From a virus, in IMG/VR virus record IMGVR_UViG_3300048834_000158, positions 1-39,405 of that record: 39,405 nt of DNA; one strand, written 5' to 3'. Position 1 is the first letter of the stretch, and every line of letters starts with the position of its first letter. Positions 5,309-38,886 of the stretch are shown piece by piece. The notes below the pieces were generated by a model that saw only the letters and a list, made by a program, of their open reading frames with translations, searched no databases and was not told where the DNA came from. The position numbers and the translations under genes are program-made.

Positions 5309-6096
5309 CAGAACACCATGTCCGCATCGCGCAGCATAAGGCGCGGGTGAGCGTGCAGACGGTGCGCAAGCGCTGCAAGGTTGGTCGGAAGCCCCTTGCC
5401 CGCCAAGTCGAGCGCGTGGCAATGCCTATGTTTGGCCGCCATCGCCGCAAAGTTAGTCCGTCCTCCAAGGGCGGGGCCGACGATTACGCTAGCGTCCGCA
5501 GCCGCAAGATCCGCCGCAGAGAACGTGCCCCCGTTGACGGACGAGATCGCGCCGTCGATGAAGATGTAATAGGCGCGGGTCAAGTAATCGAACGCGAACA
5601 TCCAACTGCGCAAAACTGCTGTTGCCCAAGGCGTCTCTGTGGTCCCGGAGCCAAATACGCTCGTCGTGGTGTAGAGCAGCGGTTGAATGTTGCCGCCAGT
5701 ACCGCAGCGGAGCGCGAAGCCACGCTGAGACGACCCGGCGCCATTCCCGAAAAATTGATCGGCGGCAACTTCTTTCGTGACGTTGCTTTGCGCGGCCAGG
5801 ATGAGGCTTCCGGCCGTGAATCTGTGCGTCCAATTCGCCAGCGGGATGATTGGCGCGTGGTTGGCGTCGTCTAGCGATGTCACATACCCGGCACTCGCCC
5901 ATGCCTCCGTACTCGTCAGAGAGCCGAGCGTCATATGCGCCTCATTGCCGCTCCGGTCCGTTACCTGCTCGTCATCCGCATCACCATCGGCCTGCTGGCA
6001 CGGCCAGAAGCCGATGTAGTAGCTCGACGGCAGCGCGGCCTGCGCACCGCCACGGAATACACGCCCTGCCGAGAACGATCCGCCGCTTACGCTCAC
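5308..6096 (-). CDS. LamG/concanavalin-A-like virion surface protein
   Basis: A 262-residue protein starting at a GTG (6096) that overlaps the upstream TGA as GTGA. The sequence reads as a lectin-type beta sandwich: YYIGFWPCQQ at the start, AHMTLGS, AGSLILAAQS, RGFALRCG, a strand-turn YYIFIDGAISS typical of LamG domains (a -I-x-V/I-D-G- turn), and SVIVGPALGGR. It precedes the lyase-like gene and probably serves as a carbohydrate-binding part of the tail. A second LamG-like gene lies at 20806-21612. Binding specificity cannot be inferred. Confidence 0.55.
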   Translation of the reverse strand: MSVSGGSFSAGRVFRGGAQAALPSSYYIGFWPCQQADGDADDEQVTDRSGNEAHMTLGSLTSTEAWASAGYVTSLDDANHAPIIPLANWTHRFTAGSLILAAQSNVTKEVAADQFFGNGAGSSQRGFALRCGTGGNIQPLLYTTTSVFGSGTTETPWATAVLRSWMFAFDYLTRAYYIFIDGAISSVNGGTFSAADLAAADASVIVGPALGGRTNFAAMAAKHRHCHALDLAGKGLPTNLAALAHRLHAHPRLMLRDADMVF

Positions 6097-6548
6097 AGCG
6101 TGACCTCGACGATGACATCAGATTCGCCGGATTCGGCGGTCAGCGTCAGGAAATCGACGTAGTACAGCCGGTCGTCGGGATCGGGGAATGCCGCCTCGTA
6201 CACCGTGTCGATGGGGATGGCGAGGTACGACACACCGGACAGCGTGCTTCCTGGCGAAGATGCCGTCTCGGCCAGCGCGTTGCCAGCCTCGGTCGTTCCA
6301 GCGATGTTGAACACGACCTTGAGCAATTCCCCGTCCGCCGTCGCTGCCCCATCCGTCTTGCGCGCGAAGTAGCCGATGCGAATGGCCTTGGCCCCGGTCG
6401 GAAGCTCAATCCTAGAGCGAGTCGTAGACTGTGCGGCGACGTGGTAGCGGGCGATTTGCCCTGGAACCTGGGACGGCAATACCACCTGGCTCATGCCGGA
6501 CGTCTTGATCGGCCCGATCGTCGATCCTTGCTCCGCGAAACTTCCCAT
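6093..6548 (-). CDS. virion structural protein, hypothetical
   Basis: A 151-residue protein starting MGSFAEQGSTIGPIK at 6548, four bases after the stop of the gp4-like gene; the longer reading from 6599 overlaps that gene and was rejected. The body is beta-rich (IARYHVAAQS, RIELPTGAKAIRIGYFAR, LLKVVFNI, RLYYVDFLTLTAE), as in small phage baseplate or fibre-base domains. It is the first gene of the host-recognition module and is coupled to the LamG-like gene by GTGA. A link between adaptor and fibres is plausible from position only. Confidence 0.6.
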   Translation of the reverse strand: MGSFAEQGSTIGPIKTSGMSQVVLPSQVPGQIARYHVAAQSTTRSRIELPTGAKAIRIGYFARKTDGAATADGELLKVVFNIAGTTEAGNALAETASSPGSTLSGVSYLAIPIDTVYEAAFPDPDDRLYYVDFLTLTAESGESDVIVEVTL

Positions 6549-8269: not shown

Positions 8270-9199
8270 TTACGCGTCGGTGCTGGCGGTGATGTTGGTC
8301 TGCATGCCGACCTCGCCCGCGTTGTTCACGATCGAGATCGGTTGATGAAAGACCATCGCCGCGCCCACGAACGCCTCGGTGATGTTCGCGGCGTTGTCCG
8401 CCAGGCGTGCGTAGATGTTCGGCCCCTGCGTGCCCGTGGTGGACGCGTGCGCGGTCACGATCACATCCGAGGCGTTCCTGTTGCGCATGATCGCCGGATG
8501 ATCGCCGCGGCCGTACACGGTGAGGTTCGACGCCGCCGCGGTGTTCTCGATGCAGGCCGCCGAGAAGTTCCCGTCGACGAACCGAGGTACGATCGTCACA
8601 TCGTCTGCGCCCGCGATCGTGACCCAAGACGCCGCCCCCGCATCGGTGGCTCCGCGGTGCACATGATCGAGGATCAGCATGCGATCCGCGTTGGCGTCCG
8701 CGTCGATCCAGTCGACCGTCTGATAGGAGCCGGTGGTGTCGCGCGTCTCGCAACCGATCATGCAGAAGTCGGCCGCGTTGACGTCGATCGGGCCGGTGAG
8801 CGCGTCGATGCCAGCCACGAACAGCAGGTTCTGCATCGTGATGTTCGCCGCGTCGATGTCGATGTCGGCACCGACCGCAGTCGTGAACGTGAAGGTCGGC
8901 CGGTTGGATCCGTTGCCCAAACCGATGATGGTGACGCCGGTCTTGTCGAGCGCGATGCCGGCGGCGGCCGTGATGGATTCGGCGTGGCCCGCCTTGATCA
9001 TCACGATGTCGCCACGGCTCGACACGCAGCGCGCGATCGCCTGCGCCAGCGTCGAGAACGGGCTGTTGAAGGTGCCGGCGCCGGTCGAGCCGCCCGCCGA
9101 GTGCACCCAGAAGACTTGACCGGGGTAGCTGTTGAGGACGGGCATGTTCTGGACGGTCAGGCCGCCCATGAAACCGCCGGGGAACGAGGATTGAGGCAT
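8270..9199 (-). CDS. beta-helix-like virion protein next to coat
   Basis: A 309-residue protein from ATG 9199, chosen because GGAG lies nine bases upstream; an ATG at 9214 lacks a ribosome-binding site. After a proline/glycine-rich start it shows repeating short strands typical of a right-handed parallel beta-helix: ITAAAGIALDKTGVTIIGLG, FTFTTAVGADIDIDAANITM, NLLFVAG, DDVTIVPRFVDG, SNLTVYGRG, SDVIVTAHAS. It is transcribed directly after the coat gene and ends before hairpin 8232-8260. Its position favours a capsid decoration or head-fibre protein; a tail appendage or polysaccharide-binding protein is the alternative. Confidence 0.6.
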   Translation of the reverse strand: MPQSSFPGGFMGGLTVQNMPVLNSYPGQVFWVHSAGGSTGAGTFNSPFSTLAQAIARCVSSRGDIVMIKAGHAESITAAAGIALDKTGVTIIGLGNGSNRPTFTFTTAVGADIDIDAANITMQNLLFVAGIDALTGPIDVNAADFCMIGCETRDTTGSYQTVDWIDADANADRMLILDHVHRGATDAGAASWVTIAGADDVTIVPRFVDGNFSAACIENTAAASNLTVYGRGDHPAIMRNRNASDVIVTAHASTTGTQGPNIYARLADNAANITEAFVGAAMVFHQPISIVNNAGEVGMQTNITASTDA

Positions 9200-9269
9200 G
9201 ATGAAAGTCTCCATGATCTGGAACCGTGCGGACCTTGCCGGGGAGGCCGCAACCCCTCACAACGAAAGT

Positions 9270-9293
9270 GGCGACCCCACTGAAGGAGCCGCC
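9270..9293 (-). terminator. hairpin between coat and beta-helix genes
   Basis: On the minus strand GGCGGCTCC pairs with GGGGTCGCC (9 bp with two G-U pairs) around a 6-base loop, about 30 bases after the coat stop, followed by a moderately U-rich run (ACTTTCGTTG). It resembles a leaky intrinsic terminator that would keep coat mRNA more abundant than the genes that follow. Confidence 0.45.
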
Positions 9294-9323
9294 CCTTGAT
9301 TCAGGCGATGCTGTCTGCCTGGA

Positions 9324-10244
9324 TTACGAGCCGCCGGTGGAGCCGTAGACGCCGCGGAAGTCGGACCAGCCGAAGCTGTACCGCTCGCGGGCCTTGTAGC
9401 GCATGTTCCCGGTCTCGAAATCGCCCTCGACGCCGCGCTGGATGGCGATGCGCTTCAGGTGCTTGAGGCCGTCCGGAACGTCGGTCTTGATGAACCAGGC
9501 GTTGGTGTCGGTCAGGCGCTGGTTGACGCTGAACCCGCCCGGCAGCATGCCCATCTTCTTCAGGGCATTGATGTCGTTGTCCGCCGTACCCGGGCGGAAG
9601 TCCGAGAACAGCAGCCGCTGCGCGACGAACTGCAGTTGCGGCGGCACGATCAGCCGCACGCCGGAGGCAGCGATCGGAATACCGCGGTCGTCGACGAAGT
9701 TGCTGATGGCGACCAGCGCATCCTCGAGCGTCGCTTCCGACAGGTCGGCCATGGTCGTCGGCCGGTTGGACAGCGACCCCCCGTTGTAGAGCGGGTGATC
9801 GGTCGCAAGCAGCTTCTTGCCGTCGCCGCCGACATAGCTCACGTTGTCGGCATAGTTCAGGATGTTCGCGCCCTTGACCTCCTTGGTGTGCTGCATGGAC
9901 CGTGCGAGCGCCTTGCTGAACTTCTGCGCGATGTTGCCGTACAGGCCGTCCTCGACGGCTTCCTCGGTGATGGCGAACGCCAAGGCGATCGTCTCGTGCA
10001 CGTACCGCGAGACGTAGGACTCGCCGCCGCCGTCGTACGTCACACCCTGACCTTCGGGCTTGACTGCGGCAGCGCCGAGGCCCGCCATCAGCACGTCCTC
10101 TTCGTACGCCTTGTCCGAAGACTCCACGTCGAAGATGTCGCGCCACTGCTCGGGATAGCGCTTGTACTCCAGACCAAACACGGCGTTCAGGCCCTTCTGC
10201 AGTTGCTTTCGGAACTGAGCGCGATTCATAACGCTTGCAGGCAT
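9324..10244 (-). CDS. major capsid protein (HK97-fold, Mu-type major head subunit family)
   Basis: A 306-residue protein starting MPASVMNRAQFRKQLQ with AGGAG nine bases upstream. The order of segments matches Mu-type major head proteins: a helical N-arm, YEEDVLMAGLG, SYVSRYVHETIALAFAITEE (long backbone helix region), ARSMQHTKEVKGANILN, LLATDHPLYNGG, SNRPTTMADLSEATLEDAL, ASGVRLIVPPQLQFVAQRL and a late GMLPGGFSVN segment. Length is near that of Mu gpT. No protease gene was seen nearby. It follows scaffold, a small structural gene and the 10301-10870 gene, and is flanked downstream by hairpin 9270-9293. It probably folds with help from the GroES-like protein (inference). Confidence 0.85.
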   Translation of the reverse strand: MPASVMNRAQFRKQLQKGLNAVFGLEYKRYPEQWRDIFDVESSDKAYEEDVLMAGLGAAAVKPEGQGVTYDGGGESYVSRYVHETIALAFAITEEAVEDGLYGNIAQKFSKALARSMQHTKEVKGANILNYADNVSYVGGDGKKLLATDHPLYNGGSLSNRPTTMADLSEATLEDALVAISNFVDDRGIPIAASGVRLIVPPQLQFVAQRLLFSDFRPGTADNDINALKKMGMLPGGFSVNQRLTDTNAWFIKTDVPDGLKHLKRIAIQRGVEGDFETGNMRYKARERYSFGWSDFRGVYGSTGGS

Positions 10245-10300
10245 GGTGATGCTCTCCTATTCGATGCGATGAACTACTGCCACTCGCGATCAGTTGAGGG

Positions 10301-10870
10301 TTAGACGCCCGGGGTGGCCGGCTCGTCGGTGTTGAACTCGTGCTCCCAGATCTGCACTTCGAGCACGGCGTATTGCGCGACTTCGTTGTCGACTGCCTTG
10401 TCGAAGCCCAGGATGCGGAAGCCAGCTGCGGTGTTTGCCATGGTCCCGCTCAGGTAGGCGCCGCTGTTGCCGGTGAGGTCCGAGCCTGTGCCGGCGACGT
10501 GGTCGGCGAGGTTGCCGACGTTGGTCTGTGCAGGCGTCCCACCAGAACGAACCTTGAAGACGATGCTCGGGTCGTCGTAGACCAGGGCCTTTGCGTTGAT
10601 GCTGCCCGAGGTTGCGCCGGGAGCAGTCCAGCGCGACTCGAAGCGAGGCGTGCCGTCCGAGTCGACCCACGAGCAGCCGGCAAAGATGCCGAGGATGCGA
10701 TCGCCGGCGGCGGCAAGCTGGATCGTGCCATCGGCGGCGAGTTTCACCGGATCGCCCTTGTAGATCTTGGTGGCGTAGCTGTAGAGGATCTCGCGCTCCG
10801 ACGCGCGGATGACCCCGCCAGCCAGGTGACGCGACGGCGCGAAGCCGAAGTAGTTGGCCGAGTTCGCCAT
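10301..10870 (-). CDS. head decoration-like / structural protein
   Basis: A 189-residue protein starting MANSANYFGFAPSRHLAGG. The short-strand pattern (YKGDPVKLAADGTIQLAAAGDRILGIFAGCSWVD) and later EVAQYAVLEVQIWEHEFN resemble small beta-barrel proteins encoded just before phage coat genes. Ser/Thr/Gly-rich loops and absence of a signal peptide or membrane helix fit a virion protein. It lies between the scaffold-side gene and the coat gene in the capsid cluster. Decoration is the best guess; a minor head protein is possible. Confidence 0.6.
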   Translation of the reverse strand: MANSANYFGFAPSRHLAGGVIRASEREILYSYATKIYKGDPVKLAADGTIQLAAAGDRILGIFAGCSWVDSDGTPRFESRWTAPGATSGSINAKALVYDDPSIVFKVRSGGTPAQTNVGNLADHVAGTGSDLTGNSGAYLSGTMANTAAGFRILGFDKAVDNEVAQYAVLEVQIWEHEFNTDEPATPGV

Positions 10871-10905
10871 GAGATGAAACTCCTATCGAGGATGAAAAAA
10901 GGTGG

Positions 10906-11421
10906 TCACTCGTCGTCTGCGACGACCGGCGTGCGAGGCTTGCCCACCGTGACGGCAGTCTTTCGAGTGTGTTGGCGCAACTGGTCCGCAGGAATGTGCT
11001 TGTTCAGATCCTGCTCGATGGCCATGTTCAAGCGCTTGTTGGCCAAGTCGATGACTTCCGCGCGCCTTTGCGCCCGTTCGATCGGCATTTCGCACAGGAT
11101 GCGGTCGCGGTCGACGATGACGTTGGTGCCATTGCGACTCTGCACCGCGTACCCGCACGCTTCCGCGTCCGGAACGGTGTCTGCTGGCCGGGGCCGCCAG
11201 CCCTCCGCGAAGCGCTTCATCACGTTCGCGTTGTCCGCTTGTGAGTGCAGGTCGATCCGCACCCAACGCTGCGCATGACCCGGACGAGGCTCCGGATCGA
11301 TGCGCCCCTCCACCCACTCGTCTTCCTCCACGCGGCTCGCGGGGTGTACGCCCTCCTGGGCACGCGTCGCGTGTGCATAGTCTGAAAGCCTGTCGCGCTT
11401 CAAATCGCTGGTCTTGCTCAT
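10906..11421 (-). CDS. conserved-type structural/assembly protein, hypothetical
   Basis: A 171-residue, highly charged protein starting MSKTSDLKRDRLSDY. It is mainly polar with one ordered-looking stretch in the middle: NVMKRFAEGWRPRPADTVP, GYAVQSRNGTNVIVDRDRILCEMP, then the helix ERAQRRAEVIDLANKRLNMAIEQDLNKH (split here across its length only by eye). The Lys/Arg-rich C-terminus could bind DNA. It sits between scaffold and the decoration-like gene. I do not recognise the family; a minor capsid or scaffold partner is plausible from context. Confidence 0.6.
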   Translation of the reverse strand: MSKTSDLKRDRLSDYAHATRAQEGVHPASRVEEDEWVEGRIDPEPRPGHAQRWVRIDLHSQADNANVMKRFAEGWRPRPADTVPDAEACGYAVQSRNGTNVIVDRDRILCEMPIERAQRRAEVIDLANKRLNMAIEQDLNKHIPADQLRQHTRKTAVTVGKPRTPVVADDE

Positions 11422-29303: not shown

Positions 29304-29512
29304 CCCACGAACTCCATCACCCACGTCAGCGCCTCACCCGTGCGCACCATCTCGGGCGTCACGCGGATGTAGACCCAGCCCGCTTGGCTGGCCGAGATCC
29401 CCAGCCGATCAGCGATGTCCGCGTGCGTCACCCGCTCGCGCGCTGCGATCTCGATGACGCGACGCTCGCGCCTGGACAGGCCGTCTACGGCCAGCAGGTC
29501 GGCCGGGCTCAT
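29177..29512 (-). repeat. direct duplication of a helix-turn-helix coding segment (29177-29303 and 29386-29512)
   Basis: Two 127-bp segments, offset by 209 bp, differ by about 11 bases by my count. Each encodes MSPA(E/D)LLAVDGLS and the following helix-turn-helix, each with its own start codon in an ATGA overlap. Several of the differences are silent, so both copies have been kept as protein. Confidence 0.8.
29300..29512 (-). CDS. helix-turn-helix protein, short copy of a duplicated gene
   Basis: A 70-residue protein from ATG 29512 (ATGA overlap with RuvC). Residues 1-48 repeat the helix-turn-helix of the downstream gene (LSRRERRVIEIAARER, THADIADRLGISASQ), then diverge to GWVYIRVTPEMVRTGEAL. 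The recognition-helix end differs between copies, so the DNA targets may differ. It could compete with or pair with its paralogue. Confidence 0.6.
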   Translation of the reverse strand: MSPADLLAVDGLSRRERRVIEIAARERVTHADIADRLGISASQAGWVYIRVTPEMVRTGEALTWVMEFVG

Positions 29513-30039
29513 GCCACCAGCTCCAGCGCCGGCCGCTCGGTGCCGAGAAAAGAATCCGCGAGGCGCGATTGCTGCGCGCCATAGCGGGCGAGCAGGATCG
29601 CCTCGGCTCGGCCGTGGTCCTTCTTCCTCGCCAGCACATCGCAGCCCGGGTACAGCCGGATCGCCATCGCTCTGGATGCGCCCTTGTCCGCGCCGAGCAG
29701 TCCGCACGACCGTTTCCACGTCGTCGGGTGCACGCGCTGCGTCGACAGCCCAAGCGCCTCGCACACGCCGCGTATGCAGCCGCGCGAGTCGCCCAGCGAG
29801 AACATGCTGCTCACGCCCTGCCCCGGCATGGCGGACACTTCCTCGATCCACACCTCGCCGATGTCGGCGACATGGACGCGCAGCAGCCGCGCGAGCGATA
29901 CGCCGTCGATCTCGTTGGCCTTACGCGTCTTCTTGCCAGCATCCCTCACCGGCATGTCGTGCACCCACTGCAGCGAGCCCGATGGCGTCACGGCCGCGAT
30001 TGCGCCCGAGATGCCGGGGTCGATACCTACGATCAGCAT
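29509..30039 (-). CDS. RuvC-type Holliday-junction resolvase
   Basis: A 176-residue protein from ATG 30039. The RNase-H-like acid sites are visible: GIDPG with D7, VWIEEV with E66/E67, and DHGRAEAILLARYG with D141 and E146 at the C-terminal helix. The conserved motif GIDPGISGA opens the family. It resolves branched intermediates from replication or recombination, which must be cleared before packaging. The start overlaps the upstream gene by seven bases. Confidence 0.85.
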   Translation of the reverse strand: MLIVGIDPGISGAIAAVTPSGSLQWVHDMPVRDAGKKTRKANEIDGVSLARLLRVHVADIGEVWIEEVSAMPGQGVSSMFSLGDSRGCIRGVCEALGLSTQRVHPTTWKRSCGLLGADKGASRAMAIRLYPGCDVLARKKDHGRAEAILLARYGAQQSRLADSFLGTERPALELVA

Positions 30040-30761
30040 TGCGCTTCTCCCTGCTCGGTGATTGATGCTGGCAGCGGCCTCGACGCCAGCCAGTAGCGAT
30101 AGCCCGGGTTCCCCCGCTTGCCCTGCCTGCTCCCCTCGCCCACCGGCAGCAGCAGGATGTCGACCGCCTCGCGCAACAGGTGCATCGCGTCCTTGACCTG
30201 GTAGCGCGAGAGGCCGAGCGCGGCCTGTATCTCTGCCGACGTGACCGGGTGCTCTGTCTCGCGCAGCAGCGTCATGATGCGATAGCGGATGCCGCCGACC
30301 TTGTAGTCGCCGGGCTCGATCGGGCGCGGCGTAGTCGACACCGCCTTGGCCACGGCGGCGATGATCGGCGCGCAGGTCGGGCACTCGGCCTGCACGGGAA
30401 CCTCGACGCGCTCTGGCGGGCGCGAGCGCAGCGTGGCGACTTCGCGCTCGAGCGCGCCGCACAGCGAGTTCGCTTCGCTGAGCTTGCGCTGCAGTTCGGC
30501 GATCTGCTGGTCCTTGCCGCGGATGCGCGCGTCGCACTCGGCCTTGACCGTGGCGACGATGTCGGCGTTCTGCGCGGCAGCGAGCGCCCGCTTGGCGTCG
30601 ACCTCGCTTGCCTGCGCGGCAGCAAGCTGTGCGCGCAGGGCGCGAACCTGCGCCTCGAGTTCGGCGATGGCGCCTGAGTCCGGCACCGCGTCGCCGCCGA
30701 TGGCTCCCTCAAGCTGCTCGACGCGCAGTTGCAGGCGGCCGAGTTCTTGGCCGAGGTTCAT
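30033..30761 (-). CDS. coiled-coil plus winged-helix protein
   Basis: A 242-residue protein from ATG 30761 (ATGA overlap). Residues ~1-110 are a long Ala/Leu/Glu/Gln coiled coil (LGRLQLRVEQLEG, IAELEAQVRALRAQLAAAQ), with a CPTC pair after it. The C-terminal third is a winged helix (RYRIMTLLRETEHPVTSAE, LGLSRYQVKDAMHLL) ending in an aromatic wing (NPGYRYWLASRPL). Such a dimeric DNA-binding protein near the origin-like repeats could be an initiator or partition-like accessory; that is inference. Confidence 0.65.
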   Translation of the reverse strand: MNLGQELGRLQLRVEQLEGAIGGDAVPDSGAIAELEAQVRALRAQLAAAQASEVDAKRALAAAQNADIVATVKAECDARIRGKDQQIAELQRKLSEANSLCGALEREVATLRSRPPERVEVPVQAECPTCAPIIAAVAKAVSTTPRPIEPGDYKVGGIRYRIMTLLRETEHPVTSAEIQAALGLSRYQVKDAMHLLREAVDILLLPVGEGSRQGKRGNPGYRYWLASRPLPASITEQGEAQC

Positions 30762-30961
30762 GGGCGAATCCTCCACTCCATCACCTCGTCCGGCGTAGCC
30801 CGCCGCATGGCCCTGCTCGTCATGCTCTTGGTCGGCTCGGTCGCGATGTGCGGGCCGTCGGTGAGCCAGAGGATGCGGGATACATCGGTTGTCGACTCGT
30901 CATCAGAAACCGCTTTCTGTGTCACCGTTGACATGCTGAGGGACGCAAGTAGGGCTCTCAT
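30758..30961 (-). CDS. small hypothetical protein
   Basis: A 67-residue protein (MRALLASLSMSTVTQ) coupled by ATGA to genes on both sides. It has polar Ser/Thr-rich stretches and a C-terminal basic/acidic helix (RRATPDEVMEWRIRP). No motif recognised; kept because start and stop couplings are exact. Confidence 0.5.
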   Translation of the reverse strand: MRALLASLSMSTVTQKAVSDDESTTDVSRILWLTDGPHIATEPTKSMTSRAMRRATPDEVMEWRIRP

Positions 30962-31332: not shown

Positions 31333-31336
31333 GGGC

Positions 31337-31357
31337 GGGCCTCGCTGAATGAGGCCC
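31337..31357 (-). other. hairpin abutting the 30958-31332 start codon
   Basis: GGGCCTC pairs with GAGGCCC (7 bp perfect) around a 7-base loop. In the minus-strand mRNA it ends four bases before the ATG, so it would shield the initiation region. Translational control is possible; on the plus strand it is followed by GAAAAAG, so it is not a plus-strand terminator. Confidence 0.5.
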
Positions 31358-31365
31358 GAAAAAGA

Positions 31366-31601
31366 CTGACAATTACTGACGCATGGCTGACGGGTTTTGT
31401 CAGGGTTTTATGTAGTTGATTTACTTCAAAAAAGAAGTAAAAAAACAATAATACTGACAAACTGACGCCTTCTCCCCCCTTTGCCGAATTTACGGGGGGG
31501 AGGCCGGGGGGCGTCAGTTTGACAGTATTAAGCCGAAACCCGCGCCACTGCTTGCTTATAAGGCTGACACCCTGCGTCAGCCAAGCGTCAGTGTTTGTCA
31601 G
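31366..31601. repeat. CTGAC/GTCAG iteron cluster, candidate replication origin or regulator-binding region
   Basis: Eleven copies of CTGAC or its complement in ~236 bp: CTGAC at 31366, 31376, 31387, 31454, 31462, 31564; GTCAG at 31399, 31513, 31576, 31587, 31597. Consensus (A/G)CTGAC(A/G). Several neighbours are 10-11 bp apart, i.e. on one helix face. They surround an A/T-rich stretch (31404-31453). The location after the primase-helicase gene in a genome otherwise GC-rich fits an origin; an operator cluster is the alternative. Confidence 0.65.
31450..31529. repeat. 20-bp inverted repeat with nested C6/G6 stem
   Basis: The arm at 31450-31469 is the reverse complement of 31510-31529 except for one base. 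Inside it, CTCCCCCC (31472-31479) can pair with GGGGGGAG (31495-31502). Together they could form a cruciform or a long RNA hairpin in the middle of the iteron cluster, and each arm contains two CTGAC-type elements. Confidence 0.7.
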
Positions 31602-31606
31602 TAATA

Positions 31607-33931
31607 TCATTCGCCCTCCCCTTTTTCGAGGAGAACGAACGCCTTACGCGGGCGGCCCCGGGCCGATTTCGTCTCGTCGACGCGGATGATGTCCGCGTGG
31701 ACAAGCCGTGCAATTGCCTCATCGGCCATTCTGCTGTTCGCAGCCCGATAGGCACGGCACCCGGATTGCAGCTCTCCTACTGTAGCACCTCTCGCGCCGC
31801 GAGCGGTGATGAACGCGAGCAATTGGTTGACCAGCCGCTCGAATGGGCTGTCTGCCAGGTGCATGCGCAGTTGATCGACGTTGCGTTCTGCGTGGACGTG
31901 CACGTATTCGATGGCCCAGGAGGCTGCGTCCGAGGTCACGGTGCTGGCGCCCATTGACATCGCGACGATGAGCGATACGCGCATCGCAATCTCGGTGCAG
32001 CGCTCGAGCATGCCGCCCAGCCCTTCCTCGTCCAGTTCGTTCGCCCGCTTGATGTTGTCGAGCTCGAACGCATCGAATAGCGCTCGCGCAGCGGCATCGA
32101 TCGCCACCACGATAGGCGTTGGGCTCAGCGTGGCGCCGACGTCCATGCCGGCCAAGTTGCCGCAGCCGGGGGCGCGTGTTCTCACGTCCTGCAGCCAGGC
32201 AATGACGCTCGCCGGCACTTCGGCGTCAGGCGCCTGTCGGGCCGGCTGCCGGCCAATGTCCGAATGCACGATGAGCAATCGGTTGAGCGAGCCATCGCGC
32301 ACCCAGCCTGAGCCGACCGCGGCGAACAGCGGATCGGGCGTGGTCATGCCAAGCAGGGTGAGCGCAGGGTTGCGAACGAACCGCTGCGTCATGTCCTCGG
32401 CCTGCTTGGACGAGAGCCCCGCGGTACTGTAGGCCGTCGGGCGAAGCACACCACCAGCGCGGCCGAAGACTTCGATGAGGTAGCGCATCGTGCCGTGCGC
32501 GAGCACGTTATTCGGGTGACTCGATTCCTCGAGCGTCTTTCCGAACTCGTCGACGATCGCGATGCACGCGGGCGTGTGCAGCAGGCAGGAGAGCACGCCG
32601 GCCTCGCTGGCGAAGCGCCCGGGGCCGACGAGCGATCCCAGGGATGCGGCCTCAAGCGCGGCTTCGATGGCGTGCTTTGCGTGCTCCTTGCCCGCACCGG
32701 AGCGGCCGACGTTGAGCAGGTACAGGCTCGACCAGTTGTTGTTGTCGGTCATGTAGCGCCGGGCTAGCGCCACGCTCCCAAGTGCCAGCGCGGCCTGCAC
32801 GTCGAACAGGGGTTGCGGCTTGTGTGCGGTGGCCGCGATCCACGCGACCGCCTCGCCCAAGACACCCGGGACCGTGAGCAGATGCGCGGGCACGGACTTG
32901 GCCACAGGCAGCGGTAGCGCAATCGGCTTGGCCGGCTGGCGCCGCGACTCCAAGAACTTCTCGATGGGGCTGGGCCCGGTGTGCGTCGGCCCGAGGATGT
33001 CACGGGCAGCCCGGACAGCGGCCCGGTAGTCGCCGCCGTGCTCGAGGATGCAGAACACGTCGAACGCATCGCACGAGTGCCCGTTGGCCAGAGGGTCGCT
33101 GGCGTGATGGCTGAACACCTTGCCATCGTCGAACCGGACGACGCCCGCGATGCGGGTCGACGATGTCGGCGAGAGCCAGCGCTTGCCGCGCTGCACGTAA
33201 CCGTGCGCTTCGATGAGGCCGATCGTGTCGTGCCTGGCGTTGAACTGGCCGATGATGTCGTCGTGGCTCTTGCTCATGGCGCGAGCCACGGGCGCCGGCG
33301 GCTCGATGCGCTGCTTGTTCCACGGGCACAGCGCCTCGAACTGCGGCTTGAAGGCGGGCCAGTCGCGCCACAGGGAAAGCAGTTCCACCGGCACGTCAGG
33401 GATCTGCGCCATATCCCAGGGCGCAGGACGCCACTCGTAGGGGCGGCCGGTGTCGGGGTGGATGCTCGGCGGGAGGACGTCTTGCACGCCGCCTGCGCGC
33501 AGCTCGAACACGGTGACTGGCTTGTCGCCAGCGCGTTGCGGTGGCCAGATCAGCTTGACGGTTGAAAGCCCAGCGGGCACACGGAAGAGCGCCTTGCCGT
33601 GCCCCGGGCGACCCTCGATCTGTGGATAGCCGTGCAGCAGTTCGTTGATCTCGATTCCGAACTCGGCGAACGCGACGCACGCCCATTCGGTGCTGTCGAT
33701 GTCGATGACGCCCGTACCCGAGAACTCATGCACGAGGCCAACGCCATAGCCGCGATCGTTGTCCCAGGTCGATTGCGCAAGCTCGGGCGTCTGGATGATC
33801 TTCGACTTGTCATTCCACACCGCCAACATCGGCGCCTTGCTTCGGGGACGCAGGGGCGTGAGAGCCCAGCCCATGGCGAGGTAACGCTCGGTGAGGCTGA
33901 GGGTCGCGTTCGTCATGGGTTGCGTCATCAT
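31607..33931 (-). CDS. prim-pol / helicase fusion replication protein
   Basis: A 774-residue protein from the ATG at 33931 (or 33928), in an ATGATGA overlap with the nuclease gene. Residues ~10-170 are an archaeo-eukaryotic-type primase-polymerase: GWALTPLRPRSKAPM, GVIDIDS with D77 and D79 as metal ligands, and PPSIHPDTGRPYEW with H158. Residues ~340-600 are a P-loop helicase of the DUF3987 type: Walker A GRSGAGKE at 409-416, Walker B ACIAIVDE at 455-462. A winged-helix-like end (GATVGELQSGCRAYRAAN) follows. It can prime and unwind at the phage origin and probably loads the host polymerase. No phage DNA polymerase was seen. Confidence 0.85.
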   Translation of the reverse strand: MMTQPMTNATLSLTERYLAMGWALTPLRPRSKAPMLAVWNDKSKIIQTPELAQSTWDNDRGYGVGLVHEFSGTGVIDIDSTEWACVAFAEFGIEINELLHGYPQIEGRPGHGKALFRVPAGLSTVKLIWPPQRAGDKPVTVFELRAGGVQDVLPPSIHPDTGRPYEWRPAPWDMAQIPDVPVELLSLWRDWPAFKPQFEALCPWNKQRIEPPAPVARAMSKSHDDIIGQFNARHDTIGLIEAHGYVQRGKRWLSPTSSTRIAGVVRFDDGKVFSHHASDPLANGHSCDAFDVFCILEHGGDYRAAVRAARDILGPTHTGPSPIEKFLESRRQPAKPIALPLPVAKSVPAHLLTVPGVLGEAVAWIAATAHKPQPLFDVQAALALGSVALARRYMTDNNNWSSLYLLNVGRSGAGKEHAKHAIEAALEAASLGSLVGPGRFASEAGVLSCLLHTPACIAIVDEFGKTLEESSHPNNVLAHGTMRYLIEVFGRAGGVLRPTAYSTAGLSSKQAEDMTQRFVRNPALTLLGMTTPDPLFAAVGSGWVRDGSLNRLLIVHSDIGRQPARQAPDAEVPASVIAWLQDVRTRAPGCGNLAGMDVGATLSPTPIVVAIDAAARALFDAFELDNIKRANELDEEGLGGMLERCTEIAMRVSLIVAMSMGASTVTSDAASWAIEYVHVHAERNVDQLRMHLADSPFERLVNQLLAFITARGARGATVGELQSGCRAYRAANSRMADEAIARLVHADIIRVDETKSARGRPRKAFVLLEKGEGE

Positions 33932-34518
33932 CCCCGAGTCCACTGGGCCGGTGCGCCCACTTGCCCGTGCTCGAAGCGGGCGGAGCGAGCGCCGACCCCT
34001 GCATCGATGACGACGGACCTGGGCAGGGGCTGGCCGTGCCATTCCTCTATCCCATCCTGGCGCTTGTAGTAGTAGAGAGCATTGGAGGCCCAATGGCGGC
34101 ACTCTTCCTCTTGCACGAGCAGTTGGACGGGGCGCTCCGTGATCCATCCGGCCGGCGCTGCTGGCGCTGCACGATTGCAGTCGATCCTGATGTGACCCAG
34201 CGGATCGCCGCAGAAGATGATGACGCGGTGCCCGGACCCAATGGCAAGCTGGCGCGCTTTCTCGATGGCGGTCTCGTCCGCTTGATCTCGCGTGCCCTTG
34301 ATCTCAACAAGATGCCCGGCACGCGACTTCGGTATGACGTGGCTTTGGATCGGCAGCCAGAAGTCCGGCAGGTACGATGACCCGTCGTCCAGCACAAAAC
34401 CCTCGGGCTCGTAGTCCCACACTATCCCGAGCCCGTCGAAAAACACCGCCCACTTGGCCTCTGTTCGCGACCGGAATCGATAGCCCTTGTATTGCGTTTC
34501 CTTGGCCCTGAATCGCAT
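33928..34518 (-). CDS. PD-(D/E)XK-type phage endonuclease
   Basis: A 196-residue protein from ATG 34518 with GGAG six bases upstream; ATG 34530 or 34623 are possible alternatives. The start MRFRAKETQYKGYRFRSRTE, WAVFFDGLGIVWDYEPEGF, YLPDFWLP and LVEIKG give E20, D52 and E72-x-K74, the restriction-endonuclease-fold nuclease core. Proteins with this start are common beside phage replication genes. The C-terminal ~80 residues are more variable. Probably processes recombination or replication DNA. Confidence 0.7.
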   Translation of the reverse strand: MRFRAKETQYKGYRFRSRTEAKWAVFFDGLGIVWDYEPEGFVLDDGSSYLPDFWLPIQSHVIPKSRAGHLVEIKGTRDQADETAIEKARQLAIGSGHRVIIFCGDPLGHIRIDCNRAAPAAPAGWITERPVQLLVQEEECRHWASNALYYYKRQDGIEEWHGQPLPRSVVIDAGVGARSARFEHGQVGAPAQWTRG

Positions 34519-34615
34519 CGTCTTCTCCATGACGCTCCGGCAAGGATTGCGCGGCAAGACGGCCGGAGAGTCCGCCCTTTCGGGAGCTACCCTAGCCGCG
34601 CAAATGCTGGTCATC

Positions 34616-34858
34616 TCAACCATGCCCGCGCCTCGCGATCTTCTGGGGCGACTCCATGCGCTGCACTTGCCTGGGCGTGCGCAGCGCCACGAGGAACCGC
34701 TGCGCCTTCACGAACCGCCCGTCGCCGGTCTGCGCAAGGCCGGTCGAGACGGCGGCGATCGCGGCCTCGAGCATGCTGTCGGCGAAGGATCCGCAATCGG
34801 GGCACTGGCGCGAATACCAGGCGCGGTGGATGGTGCAGAAGGTGTTGGCTGCGGTCAT
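34616..34858 (-). CDS. small Cys/His protein, hypothetical
   Basis: An 80-residue protein from ATG 34858 (ATGA overlap). CTIHRAWYSRQCPDCGS near residues 8-24 gives a possible C-H-C-C zinc site; a helical segment (ADSMLEAAIAAVSTGLAQ) and a basic tail follow. Typical of small early phage proteins. Function unknown. Downstream, about 95 bases up to the nuclease start carry no gene. Confidence 0.6.
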   Translation of the reverse strand: MTAANTFCTIHRAWYSRQCPDCGSFADSMLEAAIAAVSTGLAQTGDGRFVKAQRFLVALRTPRQVQRMESPQKIARRGHG

Positions 34859-37720: not shown

Positions 37721-38151
37721 TGACCATCCTCGCCGACCTGATCACAGCGTCGAAGCAAGCCGCGGCCGCGCCTACCAAGGCAAGCCCGCGCCGCAAGCTC
37801 ACGCTCGCCGAGGCGAACGACGTGCGCAAGCTGCACGCGCGTGGCGTCAGCATCAACGCGCTCGCCACGCAGTACGAACTCAACCCGGCCGGCATCCGCG
37901 GAATCATCGACGGGCGCTACTACACGACGCCGGACCGTGCACCGTATGCGCCGATCACGCGCCGGGTCACATGGACCCACGCTGACACCCTCCCCGACGC
38001 CGACCTCGAAGTGATCGTGGCGACGAAGGAAGGCGAAGTCCTGCCGGCCTGGTGGGACGGAGAGGCCTGGCGAGACCTGACCGCGATGCCGCTCGGCGAG
38101 CATCAGGTCACGCACTGGTGCCATTACCCGCAGCATCCACAGGAGGCATGA
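37720..38151 (+). CDS. HTH plus DUF551-like protein
   Basis: A 143-residue protein; the ATG at 37720 overlaps the previous stop (TGATG). The N-terminal half has a helix-turn-helix of the resolvase/Hin type (LTLAEANDVRKLHARGVSI, then LATQYELNPAGIRGII). The C-terminal half TWTHADTLPDADLEVIV, then AWWDGEAWRDL and VTHWCHYPQ, is the pattern of DUF551, a small domain frequent in phage early proteins. The fusion may be an early regulator; the target is unknown. Confidence 0.65.
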   Translation: MTILADLITASKQAAAAPTKASPRRKLTLAEANDVRKLHARGVSINALATQYELNPAGIRGIIDGRYYTTPDRAPYAPITRRVTWTHADTLPDADLEVIVATKEGEVLPAWWDGEAWRDLTAMPLGEHQVTHWCHYPQHPQEA

Positions 38152-38154
38152 CCA

Positions 38155-38886
38155 ATGTCCGAAAAAACGATAACAGCCTACAAAGCATTCGGCCCCGGCA
38201 TGATCTGCCGAGGAATGCAATTCGAGGTTGGCAAGACGTACACGCACGAGGGTGAAATCGTCATGTGCGAATCCGGATTTCACGCCTGTGAAGTGCCGTT
38301 CGATTGCTGGTCTTACTACCCCGCCAGCATGACGTTCGCGCGAGTCACGATGACCGGCGTGAGCGACGAGACCGAGAACGACAGCAAGCGCGTCGCCGCG
38401 TCGATAACGATCGAAGCAACGCTGACGCTGCCAGAGTGGATCAAAGCGCACGCCGATGCCGTGGTGGCGCTGTGCAAGCGTGCAGCATCGGCGCTTACCA
38501 GCAAAGATGATGAACCCGCTGCCACGACGGGCAATTGGGCCAACGCTGCCACGACGGGCAATTGGGCCAACGCTGCCACGACGGGCGAAGGGGCCAACGC
38601 TGCCACGACGGGCAATTGGGCCAACGCTGCCACGACGGGCAATTGGGCCAACGCTGCCACGACGGGCAATTGGGCCAACGCTGCCACGACGGGGAAGGAC
38701 GCAACCGCCGCCTGCATCGGCTATGACGGCAAAGCGAAGGCTGGCGAGGGCGGGGCGATCGTCATCGCCTACTTCGACGGCAAGCGCAAGCGGCTCGCGC
38801 TCGGCTATGTCGGCGAGGGCGGCATCAAGGCGGACACATGGTATCGAGTGAGGGATGGCGTGCTCGTTGAAGCAGAGGAGTCCTGA
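38155..38886 (+). CDS. DUF7666-like protein with nine-residue repeats
   Basis: A 243-residue protein from ATG 38155 with AGGAGG eight bases upstream. The N-terminal domain (FGPGMICRGMQFEVGKTYT, CESGFHACEVPFDCWSYYP) resembles the DUF7666 family found in phages. The middle holds six exact or near-exact copies of A-A-T-T-G-N-W-A-N plus a partial seventh; the third copy reads E-G-A-N. The end is a small basic/beta domain. The repeats look like a pentapeptide-like solenoid or a protein-binding tract. Role unknown. Confidence 0.65.
   Translation: MSEKTITAYKAFGPGMICRGMQFEVGKTYTHEGEIVMCESGFHACEVPFDCWSYYPASMTFARVTMTGVSDETENDSKRVAASITIEATLTLPEWIKAHADAVVALCKRAASALTSKDDEPAATTGNWANAATTGNWANAATTGEGANAATTGNWANAATTGNWANAATTGNWANAATTGKDATAACIGYDGKAKAGEGGAIVIAYFDGKRKRLALGYVGEGGIKADTWYRVRDGVLVEAEES
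38518..38694 (+). repeat. 27-bp tandem repeat within the DUF7666-like gene
   Basis: Six head-to-tail 27-bp units (38518-38679) plus a 15-bp partial unit, nearly identical at DNA level except the third. Coding multiples of three keep the frame. Copy number is likely to vary between relatives by slippage or recombination. Confidence 0.9.

Follow-up and report, generated by a model that had tools for sequence, protein, structure and literature searches.

In the passages of PMC7581432 that deal with them, the origins of SaPI elements are located just downstream of rep, their iterons being bound by the C-terminal domain of Rep; the SCCmec protein Cch2 binds and requires iterons of 5 nt (AAGTG), with a putative origin just downstream of its gene, and the related protein Cch is MCM-like. 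The crenarchaeal plasmid pRN1 is without iterons and has a superfamily 3 helicase: its origin is a stem-loop located 3' of the gene of ORF904, a single prim-pol/helicase/winged-helix protein, and the pRN1 authors, in the portion of their article that concerns us, suggest a 3' stem-loop origin likewise for phage BIP-1 (PMC4234260). The same portion presents the alpha protein of phage P4 as a primase, a helicase and a C-terminal winged helix binding the origin repeats, all in one protein (PMC4234260). The primase-polymerase of phage NrS-1, as described in part of PMC8718748, joins a prim-pol to a helicase domain and primes at specific short sequences (TTTGGTTA). DUF3987, a domain still named as being of unknown function in Pfam, appears as a helicase, by prediction only, in the relevant passage of PMC5862659, and among the titles, abstract starts and passages of the open-licence PMC literature we found no origin described for the prim-pol/DUF3987 family.

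The stretch of DNA that we have analysed as a whole, henceforth the window, is an IMG/VR virus record of 39405 bases with a G+C content of 65%. Its gene P0002 codes for a protein matched in Pfam by Prim-Pol (PF09250, E 1.8e-18) and by DUF3987 (PF13148, E 3.8e-12), the primase being, according to the former, an AEP-type prim-pol and not of the Toprim type. The gene probably starts at 33931 rather than at 34147: an ATGA at 33931 joins this start to the stop codon of the upstream ORF (33928-34623), and alignment with the relatives begins only at about residue 83. A model of residues 420-846, derived from an alignment of 32 sequences (mean pLDDT 90.3), predicts an MCM-like AAA+ helicase core: the best 50 Foldseek matches listed are MCM/ORC-type replication factors, nearly all of them MCM subunits, and a second structural comparison gave Z 20.9 for the best match listed, with an rmsd of 3.2 over 269 residues. 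The helicase part, which is DUF3987 in Pfam with MCM as the nearest folds listed, was not found to be of superfamily 3. For the last 85 residues the model gives a winged helix (pLDDT 82), and winged-helix proteins are among the nearest folds for this C-terminus, with weak E-values (best 6e-3). Having a DNA-binding domain, a ring-type helicase and a primase, P0002 thus has the parts of an initiator. Two resolvase/endonuclease-like genes, at 29509-30537 and 34147-34623 (RuvC-like; endonuclease type), stand at the flanks of this replication block.

As in SaPI Rep and Cch2, to the extent of the account cited above, an origin-like element starts here at the stop codon of the gene of a candidate initiator helicase, which is, by model only, an AAA+ helicase with a C-terminal DNA-binding domain, and its repeated word, CTGAC, is 5 nt long, as are the Cch2 iterons. 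Unlike these systems as they are there described, AEP prim-pol, AAA+ domain and winged helix belong to one protein, and the array, with a hairpin at its centre, is an almost complete mirror image. The likeness is one of arrangement: comparison of the sequence profile of P0002 with the PDB gave nothing convincing (the sole match, at E 0.47, is to another protein), and P4 alpha and SaPI Rep are absent among the best 50 structural matches listed, which excludes nothing. With ORF904, again on a partial account, P0002 shares an AEP prim-pol, a helicase and a (modelled) C-terminal winged helix in one chain; it differs from it by its helicase, DUF3987 and MCM-like in the model, and by the prominence of the iterons. 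With P4 alpha it shares the joining of primase, helicase and predicted C-terminal winged helix in one protein, and differs from it in that its primase is an AEP-type prim-pol. The P4 primase is of the Toprim type, and replication of P4 also needs a second region, crr. Because its helicase type differs from that of pRN1 and its primase type from that of P4, we assign the system to neither. NrS-1, as far as its description goes, likewise offers a phage prim-pol with a helicase domain; there, unlike the iteron binding proposed for the CTGAC element, recognition is that of the template, by the primase part. The element combines SaPI/Cch2-type iterons with the protein type and the 3' stem-loop of pRN1, and our best reading, by analogy, is that it would work like the SaPI Rep/Cch2 origins and recall the stem-loop of pRN1.

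The gap that separates the stop codon of P0002 from the next gene, P0003, is 274 bp long. Eleven exact copies of CTGAC or GTCAG are present in 31366-31601 (31366+, 31376+, 31387+, 31399-, 31454+, 31462+, 31513-, 31564+, 31576-, 31587- and 31597-), against 0.49 expected per 240 bp from the window's own frequency; seven belong to a longer core, ACTGAC, and a degenerate twelfth site, ACTGTC, is found near 31521-31526. The whole window holds 81 copies against 91 expected, hence no enrichment, and 11 of the 81 sit in the element, so that the cluster is local. Other 5-mers also reach at least 10 copies per 240 bp in the window, most of them common GC-rich words, with AATTG belonging to a tandem repeat at 38.5 kb. 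A tandem repeat of 27 bp (38517-38693; 6.6 copies, 96% matches) is located inside coding-length frames. The spaced pattern CTGAC-N5-CTGAC-N6-CTGAC-N7-GTCAG has exactly two matches in the window, one per strand (plus, 31366-31403; minus, 31564-31601), and none in 100 shuffles; lying on opposite strands, the two outer blocks are mirror copies of each other, and they form a 46-nt inverted repeat (76%). Over the whole array ten of the eleven sites pair in mirror fashion within 2 bp, when random layouts reach a mean of 4.6 and none of 500 did as well; with positions fixed and orientations permuted, 8 of 200 layouts matched the observed level. A search for the exact mirror pattern in IMG/VR, from which the window's own record was perhaps excluded, gave no match.

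Table. Coordinates of the features of the origin-like element and of its neighbourhood
Feature	Position	Strand	Remarks
Whole origin-like element	31360..31606	.	between prim-pol stop codon and next gene
Outer block 1	31365..31403	+	CTGAC sites + + + -, start spacings 10, 11, 12
A/T-rich tract, candidate unwinding element	31405..31453	.	82% A+T; small inverted repeat TTTACTTC/GAAGTAAA
Left arm of central inverted repeat	31449..31469	.	sites 31454+ and 31462+, spacing 8
Inner C6/G7 stem and loop (CCCCCC/GGGGGGG)	31474..31501	.	inside central inverted repeat
Right arm of central inverted repeat	31510..31530	.	site 31513- and degenerate ACTGTC near 31521, spacing 8
Outer block 2	31564..31602	-	mirror of outer block 1; sites + - - -, spacings 12, 11, 10
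Open frame of 93 codons	31329..31610	-	spans the element; judged non-coding
Small protein P0003	30958..31332	-	downstream of element; candidate initiator of the initial annotation; no Pfam or PHROG match
Prim-pol/DUF3987 gene P0002	31607..34147	-	candidate initiator
Winged-helix codons, candidate iteron-binding domain	31610..31864	-	residues 762-846, C-terminus of P0002

The middle of the array is made of a central inverted repeat with arms of 21 nt, 95% complementary, each carrying two sites 8 bp apart (one of these four sites being the degenerate one). The A/T-rich tract is one-sided, located between the array centre and one of the outer blocks, and it contains the 40 bp that are poorest in GC over the 13.8 kb scanned about the prim-pol gene. 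These features bear out what the initial annotation had noticed from the letters alone: exact counting confirms its 11 copies in about 236 bp, the A/T-rich tract does lie within the array of this G+C-rich record, and the inverted repeat with its inner C/G stem is present, with 21 nt where 20 bp had been given and a stem that is C6/G7. The mirror arrangement of the array had escaped that annotation, and the degenerate twelfth site and the folding are likewise additions to it. The gene strand of the element, when treated as single-stranded DNA, is predicted to make a single nested structure (-64.8 kcal/mol, z -10.5; shuffles -28.0 +/- 3.5), a large 3' stem-loop like that of pRN1 on the account we have of it; the central hairpin region folded alone gives z -6.3. 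So stable a fold of the gene strand would also suit an element acting at the RNA level in the operon transcript, such as a terminator, or a hairpin for processing or coupling located between the primase gene and its downstream neighbour. We hold this to be very unlikely, as there is no terminator-like site on the gene strand, a search of Rfam was without match, a strong fold (z below -5) was seen in only 6 of the 15 hand-chosen loci compared, and the iteron words also lie outside the hairpin, in both orientations.

The gap is also spanned by an open frame whose ends coincide exactly with its neighbours, through ATGA overlaps on both sides, as would be natural for a small gene. Its codon score (-0.387, when twelve other ORFs range from -0.112 to 0.315), its third-position GC of 0.52 and the want of any match in Pfam, PHROG or tblastn make this reading so improbable that we rejected it; the ATGA overlaps may be due to chance or constitute a coupling device.

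Searches with single-sequence patterns recovered no close relatives of P0002 or P0003 in IMG/VR, and nucleotide-level phage matches cover only 2% of the query. A search with alignment A1 did find relatives of the prim-pol protein, of which the best 80 of 419 were kept (37-43% identical), together with 10 genome loci; the resulting gene set (n=96) comprises 80 IMG/VR loci, L004-L008, L089-L098 and the window. Roseobacter phage CRP-901 counts among the relatives. Iteron-like words had first been noticed in three loci, adjoining the gene (L008) or near it (L004, L005), and the tests were then run on all loci, these three included. Of the 88 loci left after removal of eight genes with no stop codon or with less than 500 bp downstream, 42 have the AT-richest 40 bp of the entire locus no more than 500 bp away on the 3' side of the prim-pol gene, when 5.4% would be expected by position; weighting by 36 protein clusters gives 14.1/36, and control ORFs of at least 200 aa at the same loci have the minimum in the corresponding place in 7 cases out of 272. 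Where both sides were available (n=80), the minimum lies 3' in 40 loci and just 5' in 19. This occurrence of the A/T element on either side of the gene argues against the view that the CTGAC sites are a transcriptional operator array, bound by a regulator that would control the downstream gene block. The helical spacing of the sites and the winged-helix or HTH proteins encoded nearby are what such an array would call for, but the sole promoter-like match is weak and on the strand opposite to the genes, and 236 bp with an A/T tract and a giant dyad would be large for an operator: an operator is, in our opinion, unlikely.

Several other arrangements were seen among these loci. A group of relatives (L013, L016, L017, L021, L022, L026, L031, L032, L036, L045, L048, L060 and L079) has an AT-rich tract immediately before the prim-pol gene, about 2.5 kb 5' of the end of the gene, together with a conserved motif CTTGTTT(C/T)(A/C/T)TTGG at an almost constant distance; 14 of the 96 loci have this motif, 13 of them at -2505 to -2534. 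Possibly the tract has the same function on that side. In L080, L083, L085 and L086 a TATGGCA cluster accompanies the AT-richest tract some 3.9 kb downstream of the gene, and in L075 and L081 0.8-1.3 kb downstream. In Loktanella phage pCB2051-A (L006) two inverted repeats, 5977-6122 and 6216-6349 with arms of 41 and 56 nt, flank an A/T tract 3' of the primase gene.

Repeated words around the A/T core were tested in one representative for each of 36 groups, omitting L092, a near copy of L091. On the 3' side 13 of the 36 representatives have a best word above all 40 shuffles and the other 23 do not; on the 5' side this happened in 0 of 34, the result being never better than 1/40 shuffles. Three of the 13 positive clusters (L029, L036 and L047) may, by their look, be coding or tandem repeats, and some relatives may have their origin elsewhere or with degenerate sites. 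The words themselves vary: TTTCACA/ATGTGA beside the gene in plasmid pC of Spartinivicinus ruber (L008, with gene and element at 8415-11265 of NZ_CP048881.1), TTCGTCA in Zooshikella (L091, L092), GGACATG in Ancylobacter (L098), TTTATC in L012 and TATTGCA in the group of L088. Clusters of at least three TATTGCA are found at eight loci, 14 to 1739 bp away from the prim-pol gene, and in each of these loci the winged helix shares 60% identity or more with that of L088, so that the word is tied to the protein more than to the position; as other loci in the same range of identity are without such clusters (L075, L081, L084 and L085, for example), this link is an association confounded by descent. 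By eye, the parts of L008 follow one another as they do in the window: a block, the inverted pair, the A/T tract and another block. Rigid superposition of the two site layouts brought together 5 of the 11 sites, a score equalled by 146 random layouts out of 300, and we therefore claim a similar order by eye and no shared exact geometry; mirror symmetry was not significant in L008 or in L012. A repeat scan of whole loci (25 of 27 clusters) ranked the 3' region first in 5 of 25 representatives, a modest enrichment that is confounded by tandem repeats; in the window this region came fifth of 171 scanned segments, behind a tandem repeat.

Clustered repeats may also be the mark of partition centromeres and of packaging sites, and one of the relatives, L008, is a plasmid. 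From locus to locus the element goes with the primase gene, and in the five annotated relatives inspected its immediate neighbours include no annotated partition or terminase gene; a centromere or a packaging site is, as a consequence, a highly improbable explanation.

The initial annotation had named P0003 or P0004 (30033-30761, here 30033-30776) as initiators. An origin bound by one of these small proteins, as a separate initiator comparable to RepC in RSF1010, would fit with P0003 being the next gene and with the weak HTH matches of P0004 (FaeA, E 9e-5). Yet neither protein has a tblastn relative at any of 97 related loci, those with iterons beside the gene included, whereas the prim-pol protein, by which these loci were themselves selected, does have them, and we see a separate initiator of this kind as quite unlikely. 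With relatives at the loci and a C-terminal winged helix of its own, the neighbouring prim-pol/DUF3987 protein is the better candidate, and the likelier initiator, as judged from sequence and model, would be P0002 itself.

The traits of iteron-type origins, a word clustered beyond chance and an adjacent A/T-rich tract, are both found in the sequence of the gap, and we consider it likely, from sequence and structural models, that 31360-31606 is a phage replication origin placed directly 3' of the gene of its candidate initiator. The origin proposed in the initial annotation is thereby upheld in part, in that an A/T-rich, often iteron-bearing element recurs beside diverged prim-pol genes, which is support and not proof; the initiators that it named are the less likely candidates. 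Against the origin reading count the 23 representatives with no word above all shuffles, the 19 loci with the A/T minimum on the 5' side, the modest outcome of the repeat scan, the layouts of the window and L008, which fit each other no better than chance, and the small number of strong folds among the relatives. Cumulative GC skew, with a minimum at 30198 and a value almost as low at 38000, speaks neither for nor against an origin at this place. If the origin reading is right, the C-terminal winged helix of P0002 would bind the CTGAC iterons, and the mirror arrangement would allow loading of two helicase rings in opposite orientation, with one ring to each side of the centre. The A/T-rich tract would then be opened by the MCM-like AAA+ domain, the central hairpin perhaps being extruded in the process, and the N-terminal prim-pol domain would prime both strands; replication would be bidirectional.

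We may, more tentatively and with somewhat less than even confidence, see in prim-pol/DUF3987 proteins a broad class of one-protein replicons, in which an AEP primase, an MCM-like helicase and a winged helix would be accompanied by an adjacent origin with a word that changes with the winged helix, the near-perfect mirror origin of the present phage loading two opposed MCM-like rings. Were this true, the phage origin would be a minimal counterpart, in a bacterial virus, of the MCM double hexamer at eukaryotic origins. A compact origin beside DUF3987 genes would offer a defined DNA substrate on which to study how a single protein with an MCM-like motor recognises, melts and primes an origin, as well as candidate origin positions for many unannotated phages.
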